A stretch of 64,000 nucleotides of DNA from Candidatus Poribacteria bacterium. Lineage in GTDB: Bacteria > Poribacteria > WGA-4E > WGA-3G. Under the pieces are notes generated by a model. It was not told the DNA's origin. It saw only the letters and a program-made list of their open reading frames with translations, and ran no database searches. The position numbers and the translations under genes were made by a program. The stretch lies in contig JAJEIE010000005.1 in assembly GCA_022827625.1 (NCBI GenBank), forward strand, positions 1 to 64,000, given 5' to 3'. Below are positions 36,333 through 49,833 of the stretch, piece by piece (positions within the stretch are counted from its first letter, which is position 1; each line of letters begins with the position of its first letter).

Positions 36333-36791
36333 TTACTGCGAATAAGAGAATGTTTGGATAACGTCGTTCATAAGGAGGCGTCGCGCAATCGTTTCAAGTC
36401 GTTCGGCGTTCAGGTTACCTGTGAACCAATACTTATGTCCTGTGCGGACACCGGTGATGCCTGCAATGCCTAAGTCTTTGATGCCTTTGACGGTGCTATC
36501 GCCGACGGCATCGGTGACACCAGGCTTGAATTGCACTTCAAGCGTCCAACGCTTCACAGCATCGGTTTCGGGTCTGAAGGTGTAAACTTGTGTGATTGGA
36601 TCGGCGAGAAGTTCGGCACCGATTCGGTCAATCGCCTGATCATCGAGTGTGCCTTCAATCCAGTAAACTGTGGCTGTGCGGACGGAATCGACACCGCTGA
36701 TGCCGAGGTCGGTTATATCTTCAAGAATACCTTGTCCTACGGTATCGGGGACTTCAGGTTTATAGGAGACTTCAACTTTCCAGTTTTTCAT
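36333..36791 (-). CDS. Tandem PurS-like protein
   Basis: 152 residues made of two PurS-like halves: 1-75 (WKVEVSYKPEVPDTVGQGILEDITDLGISGVDSVRTATVYWIEG, ADPITQVYTF) and 80-152 (WTLEVQFKPGVTDAVGDSTVKGIKDLGIAGITGVRTGHKYWFTG, NDVIQTFSY). PurS is normally a single 80-residue subunit that bridges PurL and PurQ in FGAM synthase. Fusing two would give a covalent dimer. No pur genes are nearby, so a purine role is inferred from the family only. It stands alone, convergent with the methyltransferase. Confidence 0.8.
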   Translation of the reverse strand: MKNWKVEVSYKPEVPDTVGQGILEDITDLGISGVDSVRTATVYWIEGTLDDQAIDRIGAELLADPITQVYTFRPETDAVKRWTLEVQFKPGVTDAVGDSTVKGIKDLGIAGITGVRTGHKYWFTGNLNAERLETIARRLLMNDVIQTFSYSQ

Positions 36792-38179: not shown

Positions 38180-38440
38180 ATGCCAACGGAACAAGCCAGT
38201 GCCAAAACGCTTATGGTTATTGTGAGCGTGATCGGTCTTATTTTTGCGATTGTTATGGTCATTCTCTTTTTCAACGCTGCGCCAGCCCGCTCTAACATTG
38301 AAGTGCATCGCGCTTCAGAGGAAAACGTTGAATGTCTAAAGTGCCATCTCATAGGGGACGAAACATCACCGACAATGCCACACTTGAATCTCGGTAGGTG
38401 TGTCCTCTGTCATGGACTCTCGAAAGAGGAACCCGAATAG
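38180..38440 (+). CDS. Small membrane-anchored diheme cytochrome c
   Basis: 86 residues from ATG 38180. One N-terminal membrane helix (TLMVIVSVIGLIFAIVMVILFF) anchors it with the C-terminus outside. Two haem motifs follow, CLKCH and CVLCH, with MPHLNLGRC between; the arrangement resembles half of a NapB/NrfB-like carrier. It likely passes electrons in the periplasm. AAGGAG lies 17 nt before the ATG; a TTG at 38153 is an alternative. It converges with prmA (3-nt gap). Confidence 0.72.
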   Translation: MPTEQASAKTLMVIVSVIGLIFAIVMVILFFNAAPARSNIEVHRASEENVECLKCHLIGDETSPTMPHLNLGRCVLCHGLSKEEPE

Positions 38441-38443
38441 ATG

Positions 38444-39340
38444 TTATAGTGCCGCTGCGGATTCAGAAACCGCTTTGATGCCGACCCACGTCAGATCGTC
38501 TTCTGTTTCACGTACAACCTGTAAGCATCGAAACTGATTCGCTGCTAAAACCGATTTAACCTGCCCCAATTCTGTATCAAGTATCCCTGAAAAGATGACG
38601 GTTCCCGCTTCGTGAAGCCGTGGCGCGCAATATGGGATAATAGGTAAAACCACTTTCGTTAGGATATTCCCGATGATGAGGTGGTATTTGCCTGCTACGT
38701 GCTTGAGTCCATCGCCTTCGGACAAGCGGACTTGTCCTGCGACGCTATTTGCTTCAAAATTCGCTGCGGCAACCGGAATGGCTGTCGGATCTAATTCAAT
38801 TGCGTCAACCCGTTGTGCCCCTAACTTCACAGCGGCGATGGTTAAGATACCCGACCCAGTGCCGATGTCGGCGACGTGGTTGTGTGGTTCAACCGAGTCT
38901 TCCAATAATTCGAGGGAGAGTCGCGTGGTAGGATGTTGCCCTGTCCCGAATGCCATACCCGGATCAAGTCGGATGACAACGTCTGTTTCGTTGTGAGGTG
39001 CGTTGCGCCACGTGGGTGTGATGAGAATCTGTTTTCCGATGCGCTGCGGTGGAAAAGCGGCTTTCCAGGCTTCTTCCCACTCCTCAGATTTGACGGGTTG
39101 TAGGTCGATGCTGGCGGGGTGCGCCGAAATTCCCCAGGTCGATAGTTCTGAAAGGAAATTACGGAGCCGCTGCATACGTCCACCGACACGGTCATCTAAG
39201 GGATAATAGGCAATCAGGTTGACCGTAGACACGTCCCTATCCTTGAGTTCAACGCCTGTTGCGCTCAATTCAAGGAGAAAATTTGCGACTGCCTCAGAAG
39301 CCTCTGGGGAGGTGGTTACCGTGATTTTCGCCCATTGCAT
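38444..39340 (-). CDS. prmA: Ribosomal protein L11 methyltransferase
   Basis: 298 residues. PrmA layout: an N-terminal substrate domain (AKITVTTSPEASEAVANFLLE) and the C-terminal SAM domain with LDPGMAFGTGQHPTTRLSLELLE, ADIGTGSGILTIAAVKLGA and GNILTKVVLPI. It trimethylates lysines of L11. It directly follows dnaJ, the common grpE-dnaK-dnaJ-prmA order, here without dnaK. Confidence 0.93.
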   Translation of the reverse strand: MQWAKITVTTSPEASEAVANFLLELSATGVELKDRDVSTVNLIAYYPLDDRVGGRMQRLRNFLSELSTWGISAHPASIDLQPVKSEEWEEAWKAAFPPQRIGKQILITPTWRNAPHNETDVVIRLDPGMAFGTGQHPTTRLSLELLEDSVEPHNHVADIGTGSGILTIAAVKLGAQRVDAIELDPTAIPVAAANFEANSVAGQVRLSEGDGLKHVAGKYHLIIGNILTKVVLPIIPYCAPRLHEAGTVIFSGILDTELGQVKSVLAANQFRCLQVVRETEDDLTWVGIKAVSESAAAL

Positions 39341-39410
39341 TACATCTAACCCCCCTAACCCCCCTTATCAAGGGGAATTCACGCTGCCTGAAAATTGAAG
39401 GGCTTATCTA

Positions 39411-40532
39411 TCAAGGAGCTTCGTCATCCTCATGGCGACCGAGGAGTTTATCCCAAAATCCGCCATTTTCGTTCTGATACGACTCGCTTCGCAATTTTGC
39501 GAATTCTGCTAACTTCTCGCGTTCCGCTGTAGTGAGGTTTTTCGGTGTTTCGATCTCTATGGTGACAATCAGATCGCCTGAATAGGAGCGTCTGTAATGT
39601 GGGACCCCTTTGTTCGAGATACGTAACTGCGTGCCGTATTGTGTACCGGGTGGAATTTGCAACTCTTCAATTCCATTGATGCTATTGACTTTGATTTTTG
39701 CGCCGAGTGCGGCTTGCGCGAACGAAATCTTGGCTGACGTAATCAGATCGTTTTGATCGCGTTGGAAGCGATTATGTGGGGCAACATTGATAACAACAAA
39801 CAGGTCGCCCGGAGGCGCGCCATTCGTGCCTGCTTCACCTTCGCCACGTAAGTGATACTTGAACCCCGTGTAAACACCTTTCTCAACCTTCAATTTGAGG
39901 TCAGTCATATTTCGGACGAAACCCTTTCCGGCACAAGGTGGACACGGTTCTTGAATAATCTCACCTTCACCACGGCAGTTCGGGCAGGTTCGGGACATTG
40001 TAAAAAAGCCCTGCGTTTGGCTGACTTGACCTCTGCCATGGCATTGCGGACATGTTACAACCCGCGTCCCCTGCTTTGCGCCGCTGCCATCACACGTCGC
40101 ACAGGATTCCACGCGTGGCACTTGAATCCTGACCTCTCTGCCATAGATGACATCTTCAAGTGTGACATCGAGGCTGTATTGTAAACTCCGCCCGCGTTTA
40201 GGTGTGCGTTGGGTTGCACCGAAGCCTCCCAATAGATCGCCAAAGACATCTCCGAAGATGTCGTCAAGATTCACGCCGAACCCGCCGAAGTCCTGCCCGC
40301 TCCCCTCTAATCCGGCGTGTCCGAACCGATCATAAACTTGTCGTTTTTCAGGCGTACGCAGCACCTCATAAGCCTCTGTCGCTTCTTTGAATTTGTTCTC
40401 TGCTTCTTTATCCCCAGGGTTTTTATCTGGATGGAATTTGATAGCAAGTTTGCGGTAAGCCTTTTTTATCTCATCGTCATCGGCATCACGATCCACATTC
40501 AGAATGTCATAATAATCGCGTTTTTGCGTCAT
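39411..40532 (-). CDS. dnaJ: Chaperone DnaJ
   Basis: 373 residues, normal length. J domain with HPD ([10 protein letters not shown]) at about 33-35, Gly/Phe-rich linker ([22 protein letters not shown]), four zinc-finger repeats ([32 protein letters not shown]) and the substrate-binding C-domains. It stimulates the DnaK ATPase. Twenty nt after grpE, AGGAAGG precedes the ATG, so cotranscribed. Confidence 0.96.
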
Positions 40533-40552
40533 GAATTTACCTTCCTCTTGTG

Positions 40553-41389
40553 CTATTCGGCTTCGTCAGTCGTATCGGTATCGTTTGAATCTTCGTTCAC
40601 TTCTGCTTCTGTAGAGCCTTGCGAAACGACTACTTGTGATGCGCGTAGAACACGAGTATGCAGCATGTACCCGCGTCGAAATTCTTCCATCACTTCACCT
40701 TCTGGGACTTCGTCTGACGCGACAGCCATCAACGCCTCATGTCGGTACGGATCGAACGTTTTACCGACGGCTTCAATGGGTGTAAGCCCATGGTTACTGA
40801 GCGCAGTGAGCAACTGTTTATGAACAAGTTCTACCCCTTCACTGAAGGTAACCAGCTCGGGTGAAGTGTCGTCGGTTTCGACTTTCTCGGTTGCACTCTT
40901 GATGGCGGCTTCAAGGCTATCAAGCACCGGTACCATGCCTTCCAAAATTTCTTCGTTGGCGTACTTGAGCTTGCGTTGGTAGTCGGTTTCCATACGTTTC
41001 TTGGTATTCTCCGCCTCGGCGGCTGTCCGTAGTAGGAGGTCGCGTTCGGTTTTATATTCGGCGTGAACGTGTTCTACCGCGGCTTCCACCTCTTTTTCGA
41101 GTTCAGTCCGAAACAGTTCTTCACGTTCCGTTTCATATTGGTCATGCACGCGTTGGACAGTTGCTGCAACCTCTTCTTTGATTTTTGAACTAAGATTCGC
41201 AGCTGTTTCTTCGACGGGTGCGATGTGCGCTTCTATCTCTTTTTTGACTTCTGATTTAATGGTGTCAAGTGCTGTTTCTGCGATCTCCCGCATACGGGCG
41301 ACAAATGTTTTTTCTTCGGGATCGTCAGGATCGTTTTCTGGGTTCGGTTCTATTTCCGTTTCTAAGTATATTTCTTTAACGTCAGACAT
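40553..41389 (-). CDS. grpE: Nucleotide exchange factor GrpE
   Basis: 278 residues, about 80 longer than usual because of a highly charged N-terminal coiled coil (residues 20-130, many E and K). The conserved beta-wing region is [55 protein letters not shown] (about 205-262). GrpE releases ADP from DnaK. Located between pcrB and dnaJ. No CIRCE operator seen upstream. Confidence 0.92.
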
Positions 41390-41425
41390 AATAAAATCCT
41401 TTTTTCTACAAATTCAGTTCCAATG

Positions 41426-42256
41426 TTAGCTATTTTGACCGTGAACGGCGTCCGCGAACGCTTTCATCAGTTCAAAAGAACCATTTTTCTCAAGAACATT
41501 GCCTGTTACGACGAAATCCGCGCCCGCTGTTACCTTTTTCGCAGCGATTTCCGGCGTGCGGATACCGCCGCCGACGATGAGCGGGATGTTGATTTGCGCT
41601 TTCACTGTAGAGATCATTTTGTTTGGAACGGGATGTGCTGCGCCGCTGCCGGCTTCTAAATACACCATCTGCATGCCGAGATATTCGGCGGCTAATGCGT
41701 GGGGTCCCGCAATATCGGGTTTATCGCGCGGGATAGGTATGGTTCCGCTCATAAATTCAACGGCAGTGCTGCTGCCACCCTCGATGAGCATGTAGCCCGT
41801 TGGGATGGCTTCAAGCCTGTAGCGTTGTATCCACGGTGCAGCTTTCACTTGTTCGCCGATGAGATAGTTTGGGTTACGTCCACTGATAAGACTGATATAG
41901 AGAATAGCGTCGGCGTGAGGCGTCAGATGCATCGAATCGCCCGGGAAGAGGACAATTGGGAGGTTTGTCTCCTGCTTCAGTGCTGTTGCGATCGGATGCA
42001 AATCGCTCGTTAAGAAGCTGCCGCCCAGTAAAATCGCATCTGCACCAGCCTTCTCGACCTCACCTGCAAGTTTGGCGCACCTCCCAAGTTCACACTGCTC
42101 CGGATCAATTAGGACGAAATAGCCAGCGTTATATTTTTTTAGTACCTCGTTAAAGTGATTCAGAACCCAATGTGATCTCAAATGCGATGTGTCCTTTTTT
42201 AGCCGTCTTAGATCTCGGTTTGCAAACTGTCCTTTTTTGACAATCTTGCGCGCCAT
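41426..42256 (-). CDS. pcrB: Geranylgeranylglyceryl/heptaprenylglyceryl phosphate synthase
   Basis: 276 residues with an N-terminal extension of about 30 over the family. Motifs: YFVLIDPEQCELGRCAKLAGEVEKAGADAILLGGSFL, IVLFPGDSMHLTPHADAILYISLISGRNPNYLIG, IPTGYMLIEGGSSTAVEF, MVYLEAGSGAAHPVPNKMIS and IPLIVGGGIRTPEIAAKKVTAGADFVVTGNVLE. It joins an isoprenyl diphosphate to sn-glycerol-1-phosphate, the first ether bond in archaeal lipids. A DGGGP-synthase-like UbiA protein lies two genes upstream, making the pair noteworthy. No glycerol-1-phosphate dehydrogenase is in this window. Confidence 0.9.
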   Translation of the reverse strand: MARKIVKKGQFANRDLRRLKKDTSHLRSHWVLNHFNEVLKKYNAGYFVLIDPEQCELGRCAKLAGEVEKAGADAILLGGSFLTSDLHPIATALKQETNLPIVLFPGDSMHLTPHADAILYISLISGRNPNYLIGEQVKAAPWIQRYRLEAIPTGYMLIEGGSSTAVEFMSGTIPIPRDKPDIAGPHALAAEYLGMQMVYLEAGSGAAHPVPNKMISTVKAQINIPLIVGGGIRTPEIAAKKVTAGADFVVTGNVLEKNGSFELMKAFADAVHGQNS

Positions 42257-42298
42257 CTACCCTTTAAACAGAAATTTTACCATATTTACGGTGATTTG

Positions 42299-43522
42299 TC
42301 AAATTCTGTGCTGTCGTGTCAGTTCATAGAGCAGGACACCCGCTGCGACTGCTACGTTGAGTGAAGATTGTCCGGATGCCATCGGAATTCGGACGAGTTC
42401 TGTGCAGCAGTCGCGTACTTCTGGGGAGAGCCCTGTATTTTCGTTACCGACAACGATTGCCGTTGGGCGTGAGAAACTTGTGGTCTGTAGCTCTTTTTCT
42501 GCGCTGGATGTACCCCCTAAGACCTGCCAACCCGATGCCCGGAGTCGCGTAACGACTCGGACAATATCTGTTGCAGCATACAACGGCAAACGTCCAACTG
42601 CCCCGCGTGACGCTCGGATGCAGTTTTTGTGGAATGGACTTGCGCCTACACTGCTGAGTAAGACAGCAGACACTCCCGCAGCATCTGCTGTCCGTAGTAT
42701 CATGCCTAAATTGTCTGGGTTCGCGACGTTTTCGGCGATGAGCATTGTACATTCGGAACTAAAGTGAAAATTAGGTTCACCGGCATCTGACAAAAAGTGT
42801 TTGAACTGGAAATGTACCGATGCGATAGCCGATGGCACCGGACGGGTTGTGGTGACTGAACCCATCACACCATCGCTGACCTGATAACAGGAGATATTAT
42901 CTGCGAACGCCCGTTTGAGTAGATGCTTCCCGTCTGGTGTTGCAAGTAGCGCGGGGGTATAAAAGAGTGCCGCAGTGGGCAGTCCGTCACTAAGGGCGCG
43001 TTCTATCATCAGATCGCCTTCGACAACAAATTGTGAATGCTCAAGTTTGCCCTTCAAGGTCGCCAGTTTGCGCATGTGTGCGGCAATTGCGTCTTTGCGT
43101 TTGGAGACGGTTCGCTGCGCTGCGACTGCGCCGCTGCCGCGTTTAACGCCGCGATAAAATCTGCCAGCGTCTGTATGGATAACCTCACCTTCTAAGATGT
43201 CATGAAGTCCATTGTACATCCATTTCTCTGTTAGGTGGAACATTCCAACGCAGCGTCTCGGAAAAGCGAGAAGGAGTTCTCTCAAGCTGCGTTCAGTTGC
43301 AGCGGAGAGATAAACCCGATAGTCAACATCGGATAGATTTTCTTCTGGGATCATCAATAGGACCCCGTCGAGTGTTTGCCAACCTGTGGTGTGGACCTGA
43401 TAGGTCGGATGCCATTCTCCAGTCTCCAAAAAGGTCTGATATGCCTGTTTAAAGTGTGAGACCGCCTCGACATCGGGGTTTTCTCTTTCCAGGAAAGCGA
43501 TGACTTCATCGTAGTTTATCAT
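42299..43522 (-). CDS. SpoU/TrmH-type RNA methyltransferase with extra N-terminal domain
   Basis: 407 residues from ATG 43522, which overlaps the UbiA gene's stop (ATGA), so translation is coupled; the longer frame up to 43696 is just read-through of that gene. SPOUT motifs: AENVANPDNLGMILRTADAAG, ASRGAVGRLPLY, IVVGNENTGLSPEVRDCC and IPMASGQSSLNVAVAAGVLLYE. An RNA substrate-binding part (YQVSDGVMGSVTTT) precedes. Residues 1-130 (INYDEVIAFLERENP... FHLTEKWMYNGLHDIL) form a separate domain I do not recognise. Methylates ribose 2'-O of rRNA or tRNA. Confidence 0.85.
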   Translation of the reverse strand: MINYDEVIAFLERENPDVEAVSHFKQAYQTFLETGEWHPTYQVHTTGWQTLDGVLLMIPEENLSDVDYRVYLSAATERSLRELLLAFPRRCVGMFHLTEKWMYNGLHDILEGEVIHTDAGRFYRGVKRGSGAVAAQRTVSKRKDAIAAHMRKLATLKGKLEHSQFVVEGDLMIERALSDGLPTAALFYTPALLATPDGKHLLKRAFADNISCYQVSDGVMGSVTTTRPVPSAIASVHFQFKHFLSDAGEPNFHFSSECTMLIAENVANPDNLGMILRTADAAGVSAVLLSSVGASPFHKNCIRASRGAVGRLPLYAATDIVRVVTRLRASGWQVLGGTSSAEKELQTTSFSRPTAIVVGNENTGLSPEVRDCCTELVRIPMASGQSSLNVAVAAGVLLYELTRQHRI

Positions 43523-44367
43523 GAAAATGTCCCGAGATAGATTGCACCGAGTCCCACGAATATATCCCACTTCATCCAGTGCTGGATGGAGGCACAACTT
43601 TCTTTGGAAGTGTCCCGTAAGAGCCGAATTGCTAACCCAATGAGGACTACATCGACACCGATGACGACGGCAAACAGGTAATACCATGAGTACCATCCGA
43701 ACAGATACGGGATAGGACTAAATAGGACAACGAGTGCCATGAAACTGAGTGCTATTGCGACTGCGAACCGACGGTTGAGAATCGCGAGCGTCCTAACGCT
43801 GTTTTTCATATCGCCTTCTGTATCTTCAAGGTCTTTGATGATTTCTCTCGCTGCTGTGAAAAGGAACGCGAAGATCGCTGGCACAAGTGTGCCTTGTACC
43901 GAGTCTATCGCTACGCCGCCGCTCATGAAGGTTACACCGGTTAATCCGCTGACGACCAAATTTCCGACAAAGACGGTGCGTTTTAACCAGAAGGCATAAC
44001 TGACAAGCGCAGCGGATACGAGGATCGCGATGCCTGTCGCATTTCTATTAATAAGGGTTCCGAGATAGATGCCGATAACGATAAGAACTGTTGCGAAAAT
44101 TAGGGCGTGTCGTCTCTGAATACGTCCAGAGGGGAGGGGTCTTTGGGGACGGTTAATCCGGTCTATGTTGTAATCACAGTAATCGTTTATGGCGTTCCCA
44201 GCAGATAGCAGCAGTAACGCAGCGGTAGAAACTAACAGCAGCCGTGTATCTAACAGATTTTCTGTAGTGCCTCGACTGGCGAATAGCCCGCCAAGCCATG
44301 CGGAGATAAAAGCGATAATTCCGTTCAGAGGACGTGCCAGTTCAACATAGGCTAACACCTTTTTCAT
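43519..44367 (-). CDS. UbiA-family prenyltransferase, DGGGP synthase-like
   Basis: 282 residues, about eight membrane helices. The two Asp-rich sites are NDYCDYNIDRINRPQRPLPSG and REIIKDLEDTEGDMKNSVRTLAI. The first, with NRPxRPLPSG, is typical of archaeal digeranylgeranylglyceryl phosphate synthases and their bacterial relatives rather than of UbiA or MenA. It would add a second prenyl chain to GGGP. Being in the same operon as pcrB supports that role. Alternatives are other aromatic prenyltransferases. It lies 8 nt after lpxD. Confidence 0.82.
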   Translation of the reverse strand: MKKVLAYVELARPLNGIIAFISAWLGGLFASRGTTENLLDTRLLLVSTAALLLLSAGNAINDYCDYNIDRINRPQRPLPSGRIQRRHALIFATVLIVIGIYLGTLINRNATGIAILVSAALVSYAFWLKRTVFVGNLVVSGLTGVTFMSGGVAIDSVQGTLVPAIFAFLFTAAREIIKDLEDTEGDMKNSVRTLAILNRRFAVAIALSFMALVVLFSPIPYLFGWYSWYYLFAVVIGVDVVLIGLAIRLLRDTSKESCASIQHWMKWDIFVGLGAIYLGTFS

Positions 44368-44375
44368 CAGGGTCC

Positions 44376-45422
44376 CTACGGTGCCTCCTCCAACGCTTGA
44401 ATTTTTGCTTCAAGTTCGGCAACCCGCTTTTGGAGTTTAGAGAATTCGGGGAGCAATTCAGGCAATTTACGGGTTGCGGCGTGAATTCGCAATTCCTGTT
44501 TATGCGGACGCGCTGGGAATCCAGAAAGATGACTTCCGGGCGGCATGTCCTTTGTGACAGCCGACTTCGCGTAAACGACGCTGTCCTCGCCAAGTGTTAG
44601 GTGCCCTGCAGCGCCCCCGTGTCCTGCGATGTTTACCCGATCACCGAGGATCGTGCTCCCAGCAATACCGACTTGCGCTGCGAGACAACAATCTTCTCCA
44701 ATGACGACGTTGTGTGCGATTTGAACGAGGTTATCCAGTTTGGTGCCGCGTTTAATAAGTGTTTCAGAAAGCGTTGCTCTGTCAATGGTGGTATTCGCGC
44801 CGATTTCAACATCGTCCTCAATGACGACAGTACCAATCTGAGGGATTTTATGGTGCCGGTTGCTAACGGGCGCGAACCCGAAACCGTCACTACCGATAAC
44901 AGCACCGCAGTGGATAATTACACGTTCACCGATAGTTACCTCTTCACGGATACTGACATGTGGGTAGATGAGTCCGTTCGCACCGATTTTAGAGCCTTCG
45001 CCGATAAAAACAAAAGGTTGGATGACGGTGTCATCTCCGATTTCGACGTTGTCTGCGATATAGGTAAACGCTTGGATTGAGACGCGTTCACCGAGTTTGA
45101 CGTTTTTTCCTATAATTGCTGTTTCATCGACCCCTGGCAGCGCGCCGGGGTTTTTGTCCCATGAGAACATTTCCAAGACTTTTACAAAAGCCCAGTATGG
45201 GTTTTCAACACGAATCGTCGGCTTTCCGTTACCATTGACACCTTGACCGATGATAATCGCGCCGGCTTGCGTCGTTGCAATAGCGGCGAGGTATTTCGGG
45301 TTGGCAACAAAGGTAATGTGAGTCGGAAGTGCCTCATTGATTCCAGAAACGCCTGTAATTTCAATGTCCCCATCCCCTGAGAGATCACCATTGAGGCGTT
45401 CACAAATTTCCTTAAGTTTCAT
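44376..45422 (-). CDS. lpxD: UDP-3-O-acylglucosamine N-acyltransferase
   Basis: 348 residues. The N-terminal uridine-binding domain (ISGVSGINEALPTHITFVANPKYL) precedes a left-handed beta helix of hexapeptide repeats (IGKNVKLGERVSI, IGDDTVIQPFVFIGEG...), with the catalytic-His region NRHHKIPQIGTVVIEDDVEIG and a C-terminal coiled coil (SKLQKRVAELEAKIQALEE). Adds the third acyl chain in lipid A synthesis. Lies in the usual bamA-ompH-lpxD order. Confidence 0.95.
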   Translation of the reverse strand: MKLKEICERLNGDLSGDGDIEITGVSGINEALPTHITFVANPKYLAAIATTQAGAIIIGQGVNGNGKPTIRVENPYWAFVKVLEMFSWDKNPGALPGVDETAIIGKNVKLGERVSIQAFTYIADNVEIGDDTVIQPFVFIGEGSKIGANGLIYPHVSIREEVTIGERVIIHCGAVIGSDGFGFAPVSNRHHKIPQIGTVVIEDDVEIGANTTIDRATLSETLIKRGTKLDNLVQIAHNVVIGEDCCLAAQVGIAGSTILGDRVNIAGHGGAAGHLTLGEDSVVYAKSAVTKDMPPGSHLSGFPARPHKQELRIHAATRKLPELLPEFSKLQKRVAELEAKIQALEEAP

Positions 45423-45462
45423 ACCATTTAAGCCATAATCCTTTCTCCGTAGAACTATAGCA

Positions 45463-45482
45463 GGGTTATAAGCCCCTCCTAC
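45463..45482 (+). repeat. CTAC-tailed repeat between lpxD and ompH
   Basis: GGGTT, loop ATA, AGCCC, then CTCCTAC, enclosed by CTCCGT (45445-) and ACGGAG (-45488). It lies in the 82-nt gap between ompH and lpxD. Confidence 0.55.
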
Positions 45483-45504
45483 ACGGAGTTTAGGCAGTGC
45501 TGCG

Positions 45505-46065
45505 TTATTCAGAGGTTTCGCCTTTTGCTTCGTTCATCAAGCCGATTAACCGCTGTGTCAAATCGAATTCTTCTTTCACATAAAGCGTAATGAGTCGTTT
45601 TTCGAGGATAATATCAAAATTTTCGGATTCACCGACTTTGATGATGAGTTCTTGAAGGTTGTTGTAAAGCGGTTCCATGAGCTCTTGCTCTTTTTCAAGC
45701 AGTGCTTGTTGCCCGATTTCGACCTCACGTTGGTATTCCTGTTGTTTAAGGCGAATTTCGTTATCCAAATCCGCTGTCTGTGCCTGCTCGACGAAGAGTT
45801 CGGTTTTTGCCTTCTTCTCTTGTAATGTCCGTATGTCTTCACCAAGTTTGTCCAACTTCGCCCTCAAGCGTTCACTTGCTGCTTTGAGTATCTCGGTAGC
45901 ATCCGTTGCTTGTTGAGAACCTTCCAAAACCTGTTGTGTGTTCACGACTCCGATTTTGAAAGATTCCTGCCCGATACTTCCGGGATTGAAACAGAAAGCG
46001 GCGAGAAAAACGAGTAATAATATAGTTAGGCGTGCTTTGCAAGCACCCAACTGAAATAATTTCAT
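45505..46065 (-). CDS. ompH: OmpH/Skp-like periplasmic chaperone
   Basis: 186 residues. Signal peptide LTILLLVFLAAFCFNPGSIGQ, then IGVVNTQQVLEGSQQATDATEILKA and a long coiled coil (LRAKLDKLGEDIRTLQEKKAKTE... RLKQQEYQREVEIG), the Skp tentacle. Guides unfolded outer-membrane proteins to BamA. Directly follows bamA. Confidence 0.9.
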   Translation of the reverse strand: MKLFQLGACKARLTILLLVFLAAFCFNPGSIGQESFKIGVVNTQQVLEGSQQATDATEILKAASERLRAKLDKLGEDIRTLQEKKAKTELFVEQAQTADLDNEIRLKQQEYQREVEIGQQALLEKEQELMEPLYNNLQELIIKVGESENFDIILEKRLITLYVKEEFDLTQRLIGLMNEAKGETSE

Positions 46066-46090
46066 AGTTTAAATTCCTTTCTCTTAACTA

Positions 46091-48556
46091 TTAGAAACCC
46101 GGTCCAACGGTGAAGTGGAACTTACCGGCGGGTTCTCCGGTAATTCGATCTAAGCCGTAACCCCAACCGAGTCTAACTAACATACCGAGCATAGTGAGGC
46201 GTGCCTCGACACCGAGTCCGCGTTTCATGTTGATTTGGCTAAAGACGTTCCTTGTGTTTTCATCCCATACTTGCCCTATATCGAAGAACAGCGCGGCTGT
46301 GAGCTGCTGGGAGATAGGGACGCGATACTCCAAGTTCGCGAAGAAGACTTTATCGCCACCGTAAGGATTGATAACACCCGATTCATCTGGATCGGGATAA
46401 ATTTCCCAGTCCTCATAACCGCGAATAGAGTCTACACCACCGAGGAAAAAGCGTTCGTAAAATAGAAAATAGGAATCGGTGCTTTTGCTACGCATGAGAC
46501 CGGCACGTCCGTGGAGCGCGACGACGTGATTCCACCAAGGGTTGTAGAACCAGCTCGTATCGGCGTAGTATTTCTGGAATTGGTTGTCCGCGCCTAAAAT
46601 ACCGCCTGAGTACTCGTAAGAGAGTGTATTGAATGAACCGCCTGCTGGATCGAAGAGCGAAGTCCGGTAGTCTCGCGTATCCCGTCCCAAGGTGAACCGG
46701 ATGCTGCGTGTGGAACGGTTGTACAACGAAGATTCTTCGTTATTGAGCGTCTGACTACTCGTTTCAACGTGTTCGTTACGGAAGCTCACTGAAGCGTCAA
46801 TATCTTGTCCGATAGGGTGTCCGAGTGTCAAGGACGCGCCCCGCCGACTCCACATATAACGATCGGTATTGTAAAAGCCGTAGGCACTCCGGCTGCGAAG
46901 CGCCGAGCCTACCGTTCCGTAGTATCGACGGAAGCGACGATTGTTGTAAAGGCGTGCATTCAACCGGGTGGGTGTCCCCAAAATCCATGGCGTTCCAAAA
47001 CTGAGTTCAGCCGTATGGTGATCCCGAGTTCCTAATTCCCCTTTTAAATGGAGGCGATAGGCGCGCCCCCGGAAATTGTTTTGTCCTACTTCCGCAACAC
47101 CGAAGATACCGCCTTCACTCCCGTAGCCGCCGCCAAGGCTTAGCATACCTGTCCGAGGGGTCTCAGCGATATTTACCTTTAATTCCTGCCGATTTTCCTC
47201 TTCAGTCGGGCTTGGTACAAAATCGACAGCACGAATGAAGGAACCCATCTGGAATAACCGTTGCCGCGCTTTACGTAGGGATTTTACATCCAATAATTCA
47301 TCGGATTTAATGCCCAACCAATCCAATTCGCGTCTGACAACGTACTCCTTCGTTTTTTCTAACCCCGTAATGGTTACGTTATCGATGATTGTGACATCAC
47401 CTTCGTTGATTTGCAAGGTAATGTTGACCACGCCGTTCTCTTCATCAAAAACAGGGGTCGGTAAGACCGCTGAGAGCAGATAGCCTTTATCGAGATAAGC
47501 CTGCTGTAATTTTCCGATGGATTCATCAAACGTGGCGCGGTTAAAAATCTCACCTTCTGCCGGATCAAGCATATTGCGTATTTTCTTTTCCGAGAAGAGC
47601 GTTTTTGCCCCGGCTTCCAATTCCAGTGTATAAGTGCCGATGATGAATTCAGGACCTTCATCGACCGTAATATCAAGCATCAACCCTGTTTTGTCTTCCG
47701 TAAATTGTTTCTCATAGCCGAGAATTTTCACCTGTGCAAAACCGAGATCTTGATAGTAATTGCGGAGGTTCAATGATAGGTCTTCTTCTTCAAACAACAT
47801 CTGGTCGAACGGTTTACCAATACGGGTTTTCAGCTTCTTTCGCAGCTTATTACCGTCGACTTGATCGTTTCCGACAAAGTTGATTTCTTCGATCCGCACC
47901 CTGGGACCTTCATTGATCTCAAACGTAACCTGAACGGCGTTTTCCTCATCCGTGTTTGTCTCTTCGAGATGCGTTTGGAGACCGACGAGATAGTATCCCT
48001 TTTCGTGGTAAATCTGCTTAAGTGCGCGTTCGCTTTCCCATCTCCGCCGATCGCTATAAATCTCAGAGGGTCGGAGTATAAGTTCGTCCTTGAGTTTCCC
48101 GACGCCGATATTTTCGTTTCCGATGATATTGATACCGGAGATTTTTGGACTTTCGACAACTTTATAAACGATTTCAAGCCCACCGTCTTCAAAGGGCCTC
48201 ACGTCAATCTCAAGTTCAGAAAAGAAACCGGTGTCTTTGTAAAGACTCTTTAGGTCGTCCGTGAGAAGTTCTTCAGAGACTTCAGAACCGATCTGTGTCT
48301 GAATGAGCGTGCGGAGCATATCTTCGGAAGCGGTTTTCACACCTTCAAACGAGATTTTCTTCACGATGAACATAGCATCGACAGATGGTGTGGTTACGCT
48401 TGTTGAAGGATCTGGGTTTGTCGCAGTCTCTTCAGACTGTTCGGTGATGTTCGCAGGTTGCGGCCCCAATACTGTGTCTGTCTGTTCTTGTGCGTGGGCA
48501 GAGATTGCCGTCAGTCCAATGATTATAAGAGCAAGAATGTTTTTTAGCGCATCCAT
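46091..48556 (-). CDS. bamA: Outer-membrane assembly factor BamA
   Basis: 821 residues from ATG 48556 (GGAGGACATTTAA upstream); the frame open to 48643 is not used. Signal peptide MDALKNILALIIIGLTAISAHA. Five POTRA domains follow, for example FIVKKISFEGVKTASEDML, EIVYKVVESPKISGINIIGN, VRIEEINFVGNDQVDGNKL, GPEFIIGTYTLELEAG and VTIIDNVTITGLEKTKEYV, then the 16-strand barrel with GGVDSIRGYEDWEI (VRGF-like motif) and the terminal aromatic F of HFTVGPGF. Central insertase for beta-barrel proteins such as the barrels in this window. Confidence 0.95.
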   Translation of the reverse strand: MDALKNILALIIIGLTAISAHAQEQTDTVLGPQPANITEQSEETATNPDPSTSVTTPSVDAMFIVKKISFEGVKTASEDMLRTLIQTQIGSEVSEELLTDDLKSLYKDTGFFSELEIDVRPFEDGGLEIVYKVVESPKISGINIIGNENIGVGKLKDELILRPSEIYSDRRRWESERALKQIYHEKGYYLVGLQTHLEETNTDEENAVQVTFEINEGPRVRIEEINFVGNDQVDGNKLRKKLKTRIGKPFDQMLFEEEDLSLNLRNYYQDLGFAQVKILGYEKQFTEDKTGLMLDITVDEGPEFIIGTYTLELEAGAKTLFSEKKIRNMLDPAEGEIFNRATFDESIGKLQQAYLDKGYLLSAVLPTPVFDEENGVVNITLQINEGDVTIIDNVTITGLEKTKEYVVRRELDWLGIKSDELLDVKSLRKARQRLFQMGSFIRAVDFVPSPTEEENRQELKVNIAETPRTGMLSLGGGYGSEGGIFGVAEVGQNNFRGRAYRLHLKGELGTRDHHTAELSFGTPWILGTPTRLNARLYNNRRFRRYYGTVGSALRSRSAYGFYNTDRYMWSRRGASLTLGHPIGQDIDASVSFRNEHVETSSQTLNNEESSLYNRSTRSIRFTLGRDTRDYRTSLFDPAGGSFNTLSYEYSGGILGADNQFQKYYADTSWFYNPWWNHVVALHGRAGLMRSKSTDSYFLFYERFFLGGVDSIRGYEDWEIYPDPDESGVINPYGGDKVFFANLEYRVPISQQLTAALFFDIGQVWDENTRNVFSQINMKRGLGVEARLTMLGMLVRLGWGYGLDRITGEPAGKFHFTVGPGF

Positions 48557-48700
48557 ATTTAAATGTCCTCCTGTATCGCAAGAAAATAAAGTTGAGAAGT
48601 GTGCTATAGTTTGCAAGTATGAGAAAGTTGAAGGCACTCGCAAGCAACTTTACAACCTTAGAGATTTTAGAACACTTTACTGACTTGACGCCTGAAGGTC

Positions 48701-49582
48701 TTATGCCTCAGCGGGATAGATTAGCGTTCCGTAACTATTTGCGTACTGCCTGAATGCATCGATAAGTTTCTGTGTAATCTTCCCGGGTTGCCCATCTCCA
48801 ATGGAGCGTTGGTCGATTTTCACGACGGGGATGACCTCGGCGGCAGTGCCGGTCAAGAAGCATTCGTCGGCGATATAGAGATCGTGCCGTGTAAAGACGC
48901 GCTCTTCGACTCGCATCCCCGCCTCACGGGCGAGATCGATGACGCTGTTTCGCGTAACACCCTCCAGGATCCCCATGTGGACTGGCGGTGTGACCAACAC
49001 TTCGTTTTTTATCCAGAAAATATTATCGCCACTACATTCAACAACATAGCCTTCAGCATTCAGCATCAGTACCTCTTCTGCCCCGGCTTGTTTTCCCTCG
49101 ATTTTCGCTAAGATGTTATTTAGATAGTTCAAGGACTTAATCCGTGGGTTGATGGCTTCGGCATAATTCCGTCGAATCGAGACGGTTACAATCTCAAGTC
49201 CTTCTTCATAGAATTTCGGTGGATAGAGGGTAATCTTATCAGCGATAATAATGATAGTCGGTTTTGGGCATTTATCTGGGTCCAGCCCAAGATCCCCAAC
49301 CCCGCGGGTGACGATCAGTCGAATATAGGCTTCCGTGAGATGGTTAAGACGGAGTGTTTCCAGGACCTTTTCCTTCATTGTTTCGATAGGAATAGGAATC
49401 TGTAGCATAATTGATTTCGCAGAATCGTAGAGGCGTTCAAGATGCTCGTCAAGTTTAAAAACTCTACCGTTATAGGAGCGGATGCCCTCAAAAACGCCAT
49501 CACCATAGAGCAAACCGTGGTCAAACACCGAGACTTTCGCCTCTGCTTTGGGTAAAAATTCTCCGTCAATATAAATCAACAT
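48701..49582 (-). CDS. ilvE: Branched-chain amino acid aminotransferase
   Basis: 293 residues, class IV PLP fold. VFDHGLLYGDGVFEGIRSYNGRVFKLDEHLERLYDSAK, the PLP lysine in RIKSLNYLNNILAKIEGK, EVLMLNAEGYVVECSGDNIFWI and GVTRNSVIDLAREAG are IlvE markers. It interconverts Val, Leu and Ile with their keto acids. AGGAGG precedes the ATG by 17 nt. Its leader contains the structured 65-bp repeat (copy 2) shared with the UxuA-like gene leader. Confidence 0.92.
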   Translation of the reverse strand: MLIYIDGEFLPKAEAKVSVFDHGLLYGDGVFEGIRSYNGRVFKLDEHLERLYDSAKSIMLQIPIPIETMKEKVLETLRLNHLTEAYIRLIVTRGVGDLGLDPDKCPKPTIIIIADKITLYPPKFYEEGLEIVTVSIRRNYAEAINPRIKSLNYLNNILAKIEGKQAGAEEVLMLNAEGYVVECSGDNIFWIKNEVLVTPPVHMGILEGVTRNSVIDLAREAGMRVEERVFTRHDLYIADECFLTGTAAEVIPVVKIDQRSIGDGQPGKITQKLIDAFRQYANSYGTLIYPAEA

Positions 49583-49604
49583 TTTTTAATTATGGCCTCC
49601 TGAG

Positions 49605-49833
49605 CTGCCCTCCAAGTGTAAAGCAAAGACAAATTCCTCGCTAATCACTCAGAATTTCATTTCGGGCAGATTTCTGGTCACCCTGGGCGGATATTTTAGA
49701 GTTGTGCTGTTAATAAGAAAGAAAAAACCGTTCAGTTCCTTAATATAATTGAAATTTATTGGAAACCCCGCGAAATGAAATTATGCCTTAAATGGCATGA
49801 TTTGTCTTCAGTTTTACATTTGGAGCGGTGCCC
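49605..49833. mobile_element. MITE-like element between lolD and ilvE with inverted structured repeats
   Basis: Copy 2 (49605-49669) is bounded by CTGCCC and GGGCAG and has inner stem AAATTC (49631-49636) / GAATTT (49652-49657). Copy 3 (49771-49833) is the same element in reverse, with core ATGCC/GGCAT. Together they flank an AT-rich centre without genes, giving a 229-bp unit with 60-bp inverted ends. Whether it moves is unknown. Confidence 0.55.

Follow-up and report, generated by a model that had tools for sequence, protein, structure and literature searches.

Archaeal-type ether-lipid genes conserved across Candidatus Poribacteria and a probable selenocysteine geranylgeranyl reductase in related families

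The ubiA and pcrB genes of the window (the whole 64,000-nucleotide stretch of Candidatus Poribacteria DNA analysed here) probably encode the two core enzymes of a diether-lipid pathway of archaeal type that is ancestral to Candidatus Poribacteria. We put the probability of this reading at about 0.77. The best-known habitat of these bacteria is sponges. The source genome is 5.02 Mb in 41 contigs and is 95% complete. Genomes (G..), families (f..) and genera (g..) carry arbitrary handles below, and L.. denotes individual sequences or loci. The gene order on the minus strand was bamA, ompH, lpxD, ubiA, spoU, pcrB, grpE, dnaJ, and prmA. The features that matter here are the following.

44376..45422, minus strand: lpxD, lipid A biosynthesis, upstream neighbour (TIGR01853, 373 bits, above the cut-off)
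43519..44367, minus strand: UbiA prenyltransferase, DGGGP synthase type, predicted to form the second ether bond (PF01040, 150 bits)
42299..43522, minus strand: SpoU-family RNA 2'-O-methyltransferase with an N-terminal extension (PF00588, 125 bits)
42274..42302, minus strand: promoter-like site TTGACA-17-TAAAAT upstream of pcrB (11/12 match)
41426..42256, minus strand: PcrB, group-II GGGP synthase, predicted to form the first ether bond (PF01884, 160 bits; TIGR01769)
40553-41389, minus strand: grpE, downstream neighbour of pcrB
39411-40532, minus strand: dnaJ, downstream neighbour of pcrB

The annotated order agrees with the preliminary description in placing ubiA and pcrB downstream of lpxD. 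The same description set the two genes two genes apart, which is corrected here: the single gene spoU (42299-43522) separates them. The 4-nt overlap with SpoU holds for UbiA and consists of ATGA at 43519-43522. Each of the 26 named poribacterial contigs kept the order lpxD-ubiA-spoU-pcrB-grpE-dnaJ over the stretch that it covers, so the arrangement is not due to chance. The UbiA protein shared 92–95% identity with the nearest named poribacterial contigs. LpxC is present in the source genome, and by gene content lipid A synthesis in the source organism is real.

The profile search showed that PcrB matched the GGGP synthase equivalog TIGR01769 with 226.7 bits (cut-off 161.6), and the heptaprenyl model (Bacillus-type, HepGP synthase) with only 30 bits. 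The PDB matches were 4mm1 (187 bits) and 4jej (184 bits). The YLE motif (Y199, L200, E201), Y155, and the phosphate-binding glycine regions G203-A206 and G229-G231 were invariant in 22 poribacterial sequences with identity down to 50%. The N-terminal 20 residues or so varied among relatives and showed no conservation, so the annotated start is uncertain. These features indicate that the window PcrB is of the C20 group-II GGGP synthase type and not of the heptaprenyl type, with the activity predicted from this assignment. Bacillus PcrB is a group I enzyme, is C35-specific, and works without a DGGGPS. The poribacterial system resembles the heptaprenylglyceryl phosphate pathway of Bacillus in its PcrB superfamily and in being a bacterial ether-lipid system, but it differs in its group II PcrB, its GGGP equivalog match, and its UbiA partner. 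The closest solved structures are the archaeal MtGGGPS and the Bacteroidota FjGGGPS, both of group II (PMC9385802). Viral contigs yielded no reference sequences, and plasmids yielded no PcrB.

UbiA scored 228, 219, and 182 bits against the DGGGPS-type models. All three scores were below the strict equivalog cut-offs (219 vs 296 bits for PRK12882, 182 vs 353 for PRK12883), and the protein is therefore labelled DGGGPS-type and not a formal equivalog. The next-best model was an unspecified prenyltransferase with 123 bits, and the EboC, ChlG, heme O, and quinone models reached at most 89 bits. Against the PDB, the score was 140 bits for MjDGGGPS (6m31) and 31 bits for chlorophyll synthase (ChlG). 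The DGGGP-synthase signature named in the preliminary description was found in the UbiA sequence, which contains both motif 1 (NDxxDxxxD) and motif 3 (KDxEDxxGD) of DGGGPS. Residues N61, D65, D69, D179, D182, and D186 correspond to N62, D66, D70, D180, D183, and D187 of MjDGGGPS, all of which the archaeal enzyme requires (PMC9385802), and they were invariant in 19 poribacterial sequences. In the phylogenetic trees, the window protein grouped with archaeal DGGGPS and was separate from ChlG, MqnP, and CyoE, and from the MqnP-like and heme O synthases of its own genome, with 84–92% support. The archaeal sampling comprised haloarchaea and one methanogen, and several branches were long. Because of this moderate support and the long branches, we read the tree as agreeing with the profile evidence. 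Models and active sites thus bear out the proposal that these are ether-lipid enzymes of archaeal type, and trees and profile margins place UbiA with DGGGPS and not with the quinone or heme prenyltransferases.

The distribution of the two genes was surveyed in 85 poribacterial genomes. PcrB was present as a full match in 73 genomes, UbiA in 74, and both in 72 (Fisher p = 2e-10, a statistic that ignores relatedness). In G045, lpxD, spoU, and grpE retain their order and lie about 100 bases apart, and both ubiA and pcrB are gone. Five genomes of genus g9 have neither gene though lpxD is present, and the sixth has both. Four further genomes (G071, G072, G033, and G010) were not accepted as losses; these bins also have no lpxD and may contain assembly gaps. 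Two independent co-loss events are secure, and only two. Joint loss that spares SpoU is the pattern expected when two enzymes serve a single pathway, and SpoU is then a bystander. Membership of SpoU in the pathway was rejected, since G045 keeps the gene and several families have ubiA and pcrB without it in between.

It had been proposed that the lipid A and ether-lipid genes are made from one transcript. This was not supported, because pcrB has its own promoter-like site, which is kept where pcrB was lost, and because the lpxD-ubiA spacing varies among relatives, up to about 2 kb. TTGACA-17-TAAAAT at 42302-42274, just upstream of pcrB, is the best promoter-like match in 38300-49700, and a TG precedes its second hexamer. 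A similar site was found in 18 of the 28 loci tested, including the pcrB-less G045, where grpE follows it. The scan as a whole gave no more sites than shuffled sequences, so the argument rests on conservation of the site. The pcrB gene probably belongs to a pcrB-grpE-dnaJ unit with a shared predicted promoter, and ubiA probably to the lpxD side.

The pathway needs glycerol phosphate and GGPP. No EgsA/AraM G1P dehydrogenase over the curated cut-off was found in the 85 poribacterial genomes, and a 2016 survey lists Poribacteria as having no G1P dehydrogenase (PMC5059525). The G1PDH homologue of the source genome (L029) scored 112 bits against a cut-off of 413, and its alignment showed three apparent metal ligands kept. 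Homologues of this type occur in G071 and G072, in which no ubiA-pcrB pair was found; no genome of genus g4 has one, and most of the g4 genomes do have the pair. L029 was not accepted as a dedicated G1PDH, because this distribution is independent of pcrB and ubiA. A clear AraM-like protein occurred in two genomes of family f5 only. The preliminary description named a lack of G1P dehydrogenase as a refutation of its reading. This lack was half found: no EgsA/AraM protein exceeds the cut-off, and the one distant homologue does not track the pathway. It does not overturn the ether-lipid idea, since the Cloacimonetes precedent also has no G1PDH (PMC7852524). The source genome encodes two polyprenyl synthases, L061 and a long-chain one. 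L061 carries the signature of archaeal type-I GGPPS, with a W five residues before DDIED and no FARM insertion, following a published rule (PMC9385802). Its best PDB match was the T. thermophilus GGPPS 1wmw, and its scores were below the equivalog cut-offs. L061 is a plausible candidate for the GGPP synthase of the source genome.

In families outside the window's family (f1), the gene before pcrB is a geranylgeranyl reductase (GGR) where the cluster is intact. A dicluster ferredoxin precedes this GGR or is fused to it. The order ubiA-spoU-ferredoxin-GGR-pcrB was seen in L087, L089, and L139, with a short SpoU frame in L089. The GGR proteins scored 215–242 bits against TIGR02032 (cut-off 158.8) and contained the GGR_cat domain. 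Their best solved relative was the Thermoplasma digeranylgeranylglycerophospholipid reductase (PDB 3oz2) with 271 bits. Judged by its gene content, UbiA-(SpoU)-ferredoxin-GGR-PcrB is an archaeal diether-lipid cluster. In Methanosarcina, too, a ferredoxin adjoins GGR, and it makes the GGR more active in E. coli (PMC9385802). The arrangement in family f1 is ubiA-spoU-pcrB, and no GGR over the family cut-off was found anywhere in the window genome, in a search that read through stops. L042 was rejected as the GGR of this genome; it is halogenase-like (PF04820, best model CmlS) and has no CAEG motif at the flavin. We infer that GGR was lost in the f1 lineage after the cluster arrangement arose.

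In the proposed pathway, PcrB would join geranylgeranyl diphosphate to glycerol phosphate, and the stereochemistry would depend on the source of the glycerol phosphate, as in Cloacimonetes (PMC7852524). The membrane enzyme UbiA would then attach the second geranylgeranyl chain to give DGGGP. The ordinary CDP-lipid and head-group enzymes of the bacterium could complete the phospholipid. The product, beside the normal G3P ester lipids and lipid A, would make a mixed membrane. This mixed-membrane reading is plausible and is not new in kind, given the precedent of 2021. The alternative that survives best, which we regard as possible if rather unlikely, is that PcrB and UbiA produce some minor, specialised ether lipid, for example an anchor or a modified diether resembling the HepGP lipid of Bacillus, and not bulk phospholipid. 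The missing dedicated G1PDH, the loss of GGR from the window genome, and the dispensability of the pathway, which G045 and most genomes of g9 have lost, fit such a role. The C20 GGGPS type of PcrB speaks against it, as do the second-chain enzyme in the cluster and, elsewhere, a phospholipid-type GGR with its ferredoxin.

GGR genes of a second type were found in eight genomes (loci L079, L087, L088, L089, L139, L140, L141, and L142), spread over six genera and three families of the window's order. Each contains exactly one in-frame stop, a TGA aligned with Cys45 of TaGGR. Seven GGR orthologues from deeper families have Cys at this position. Cys45 of TaGGR equals Cys47 of SaGGR. Archaeal GGRs share this conserved cysteine, which is essential to the S. 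acidocaldarius enzyme (PMC10821996, PMC6309074). A SECIS-like hairpin lies 3' of the TGA, with 95.8% of cells paired across the eight sequences and three pairs changed on both sides (T-A/C-G, G-C/A-T, C-G/A-T). The signal collapsed in a control in which the pairing partners were slid. The consensus apical loop is G[G/U]C, about 20–21 nt after the UGA, and the energies were −10 to −18 kcal/mol. Loop, spacing, and energy agree with the published bacterial SECIS model. L141 folds differently when folded singly. A tRNA-Sec above the cut-off was detected in seven of the eight genomes (G013, G014, G015, G016, G023, G025, and G026), and none over the cut-off was found in the eighth, G024, which is 80% complete. 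ARAGORN called tRNA-Sec in all four of the Sec-GGR genomes tested. The selA and selB genes adjoin tRNA-Sec in G023, G013, and G016; selA was profile-scored in G023 and G013 (601 and 590 bits) and selB in G023 (371 bits), and the remainder were assigned by sequence likeness. The window genome itself carries tRNA-Sec and selB.

The GGR of these eight genomes is probably a selenoprotein, because a TGA at the essential Cys coincides with a covarying hairpin and with tRNA-Sec in seven of eight genomes. The competing explanation, a pseudogene stop or a sequencing error, is very improbable. Selenocysteine is predicted here from sequence and the single-sequence hairpin z-scores were modest (−2.9 to +0.5), but a TGA that is the sole in-frame stop and always falls at the essential cysteine in six genera, doubly compensated pairs, a loop that starts with G 21 nt after the UGA, and selA and selB beside the tRNA-Sec of three genomes argue against decay or error. 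A list of 119 selenoprotein families of prokaryotes, dated 2026, contains no mention of geranylgeranyl. A partial literature search found no report of a Sec-containing GGR, which means "not found" and not "never seen".

It is likewise very improbable that UbiA prenylates a quinone, heme, or chlorin and lies near pcrB by accident: the UbiA superfamily is large and the three further UbiA proteins of the source genome include the unassigned fourth paralogue L037, but the other two are a separate MqnP-like protein and a heme O synthase, the DGGGPS-type models score more than 90 bits above the quinone, heme, and chlorin models, and clustering, joint presence and loss with pcrB, and tree placement also speak against this explanation. 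For the diether-lipid pathway, we suggest that in the ancestral cluster the ferredoxin would hand electrons to GGR, which would saturate the chains. GGR may have turned selenocysteine-dependent in the window's order, and the window genome would later have lost it. Its lipid product would then stay unsaturated unless another enzyme acts. A wider reading is somewhat favoured: Poribacteria may make archaeal-type diether lipids phylum-wide, in addition to bacterial lipids, from a dedicated UbiA-ferredoxin-GGR-PcrB cluster, part of them saturating these lipids with a Sec-GGR, and the window lineage may make unsaturated archaeol-type lipids.

In 2021, bacteria of FCB phyla were proposed to have archaeal-type lipids (Villanueva et al., PMC7852524). 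In that study, GGGPS and DGGGPS of Cloacimonetes gave an archaeol phospholipid in E. coli. Its main text does not mention Poribacteria and describes bacterial co-localization as seemingly restricted to Cloacimonetes. Poribacteria resemble Cloacimonetes and other FCB bacteria in having GGGPS and DGGGPS close together in a bacterium with bacterial lipid genes and in having no G1PDH. They differ in belonging to another phylum, in the SpoU between the pair, and in the families that add ferredoxin and GGR to the cluster, the GGR having a probable Sec form. The Cloacimonetes/FCB genomes have a GGR; some poribacterial families have one and the window genome does not. The poribacterial GGR belongs to the same family as the archaeal TaGGR (3oz2) and SaGGR and shares their active-site motif, and as in Methanosarcina it has a ferredoxin partner (PMC9385802). 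Unlike in these archaeal enzymes, the essential Cys45/Cys47 is replaced by TGA with a SECIS-like hairpin in eight poribacterial genomes. New in the present analysis are the phylum, the joint loss, the ferredoxin-GGR in the cluster, the absence of GGR from the window genome, and the probable Sec-GGR of sister families.

Proposals of natural mixed membranes that bridge the "lipid divide" have so far drawn on the genes of a single superphylum, and no organism with a demonstrated natural mixed membrane was found in the literature. The conserved cluster, the near-complete co-occurrence of the enzymes, and the GGR with its ferredoxin make the question testable on sponge material and in E. coli. A Sec-GGR, if true, would be, to our knowledge, the first selenoprotein in membrane-lipid synthesis, and it would tie selenium to lipid saturation. 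The series of Cys and Sec GGR orthologues would provide naturally occurring variants with which to examine the debated function of Cys47.

The fourth UbiA paralogue of the window's genome (L037, G000:C11:38578-39279; L040:9417-10340) was closer to DGGGPS-type models than to quinone models (128 bits). It is adjoined by a sulfatase-like gene and occurs widely across the phylum. A distant G1P-dehydrogenase homologue (L029/L046, G000:C30:368363-369424), next to a peptidase-M19-like gene, is conserved across most of the genomes in the genus to which the window belongs; its distribution showed no relation to that of pcrB.

In the window, the SpoU methyltransferase has an N-terminal extension of ~150 residues (42910-43522), which is conserved within the window's family and had no Pfam match. 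The small protein at 36333-36791 comprises two copies of a single domain, NWKVEVSYKPEVPDTVGQGILEDI and RWTLEVQFKPGVTDAVGDSTVKGI, and by eye its sequence resembles PurS.

The essential-cysteine codon of the geranylgeranyl reductase (GGR) is an in-frame TGA at eight loci, with a covarying hairpin 3′ of the TGA. By sequence, these GGRs are a candidate new selenoprotein family.

GGR genes with in-frame TGA (locus label:positions)
L079:7545-8732
L087:8137-9324
L088:8256-9443
L089:9759-10946
L139:7808-8995
L140:4584-5771
L141:4980-6167
L142:4724-5911

In genome G023, genes resembling a two-subunit 2-oxoacid:ferredoxin oxidoreductase (L079:3505-6200) directly adjoin ubiA-ferredoxin-GGR upstream and are a possible electron source. 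No GGR was found in the window's own genome, which nevertheless carries the following genes on G000:C11:
L147:9546-9639, tRNA-Sec
L147:9779-11755, selB

Since both are present, selenocysteine decoding should be expected there despite the absence of GGR.
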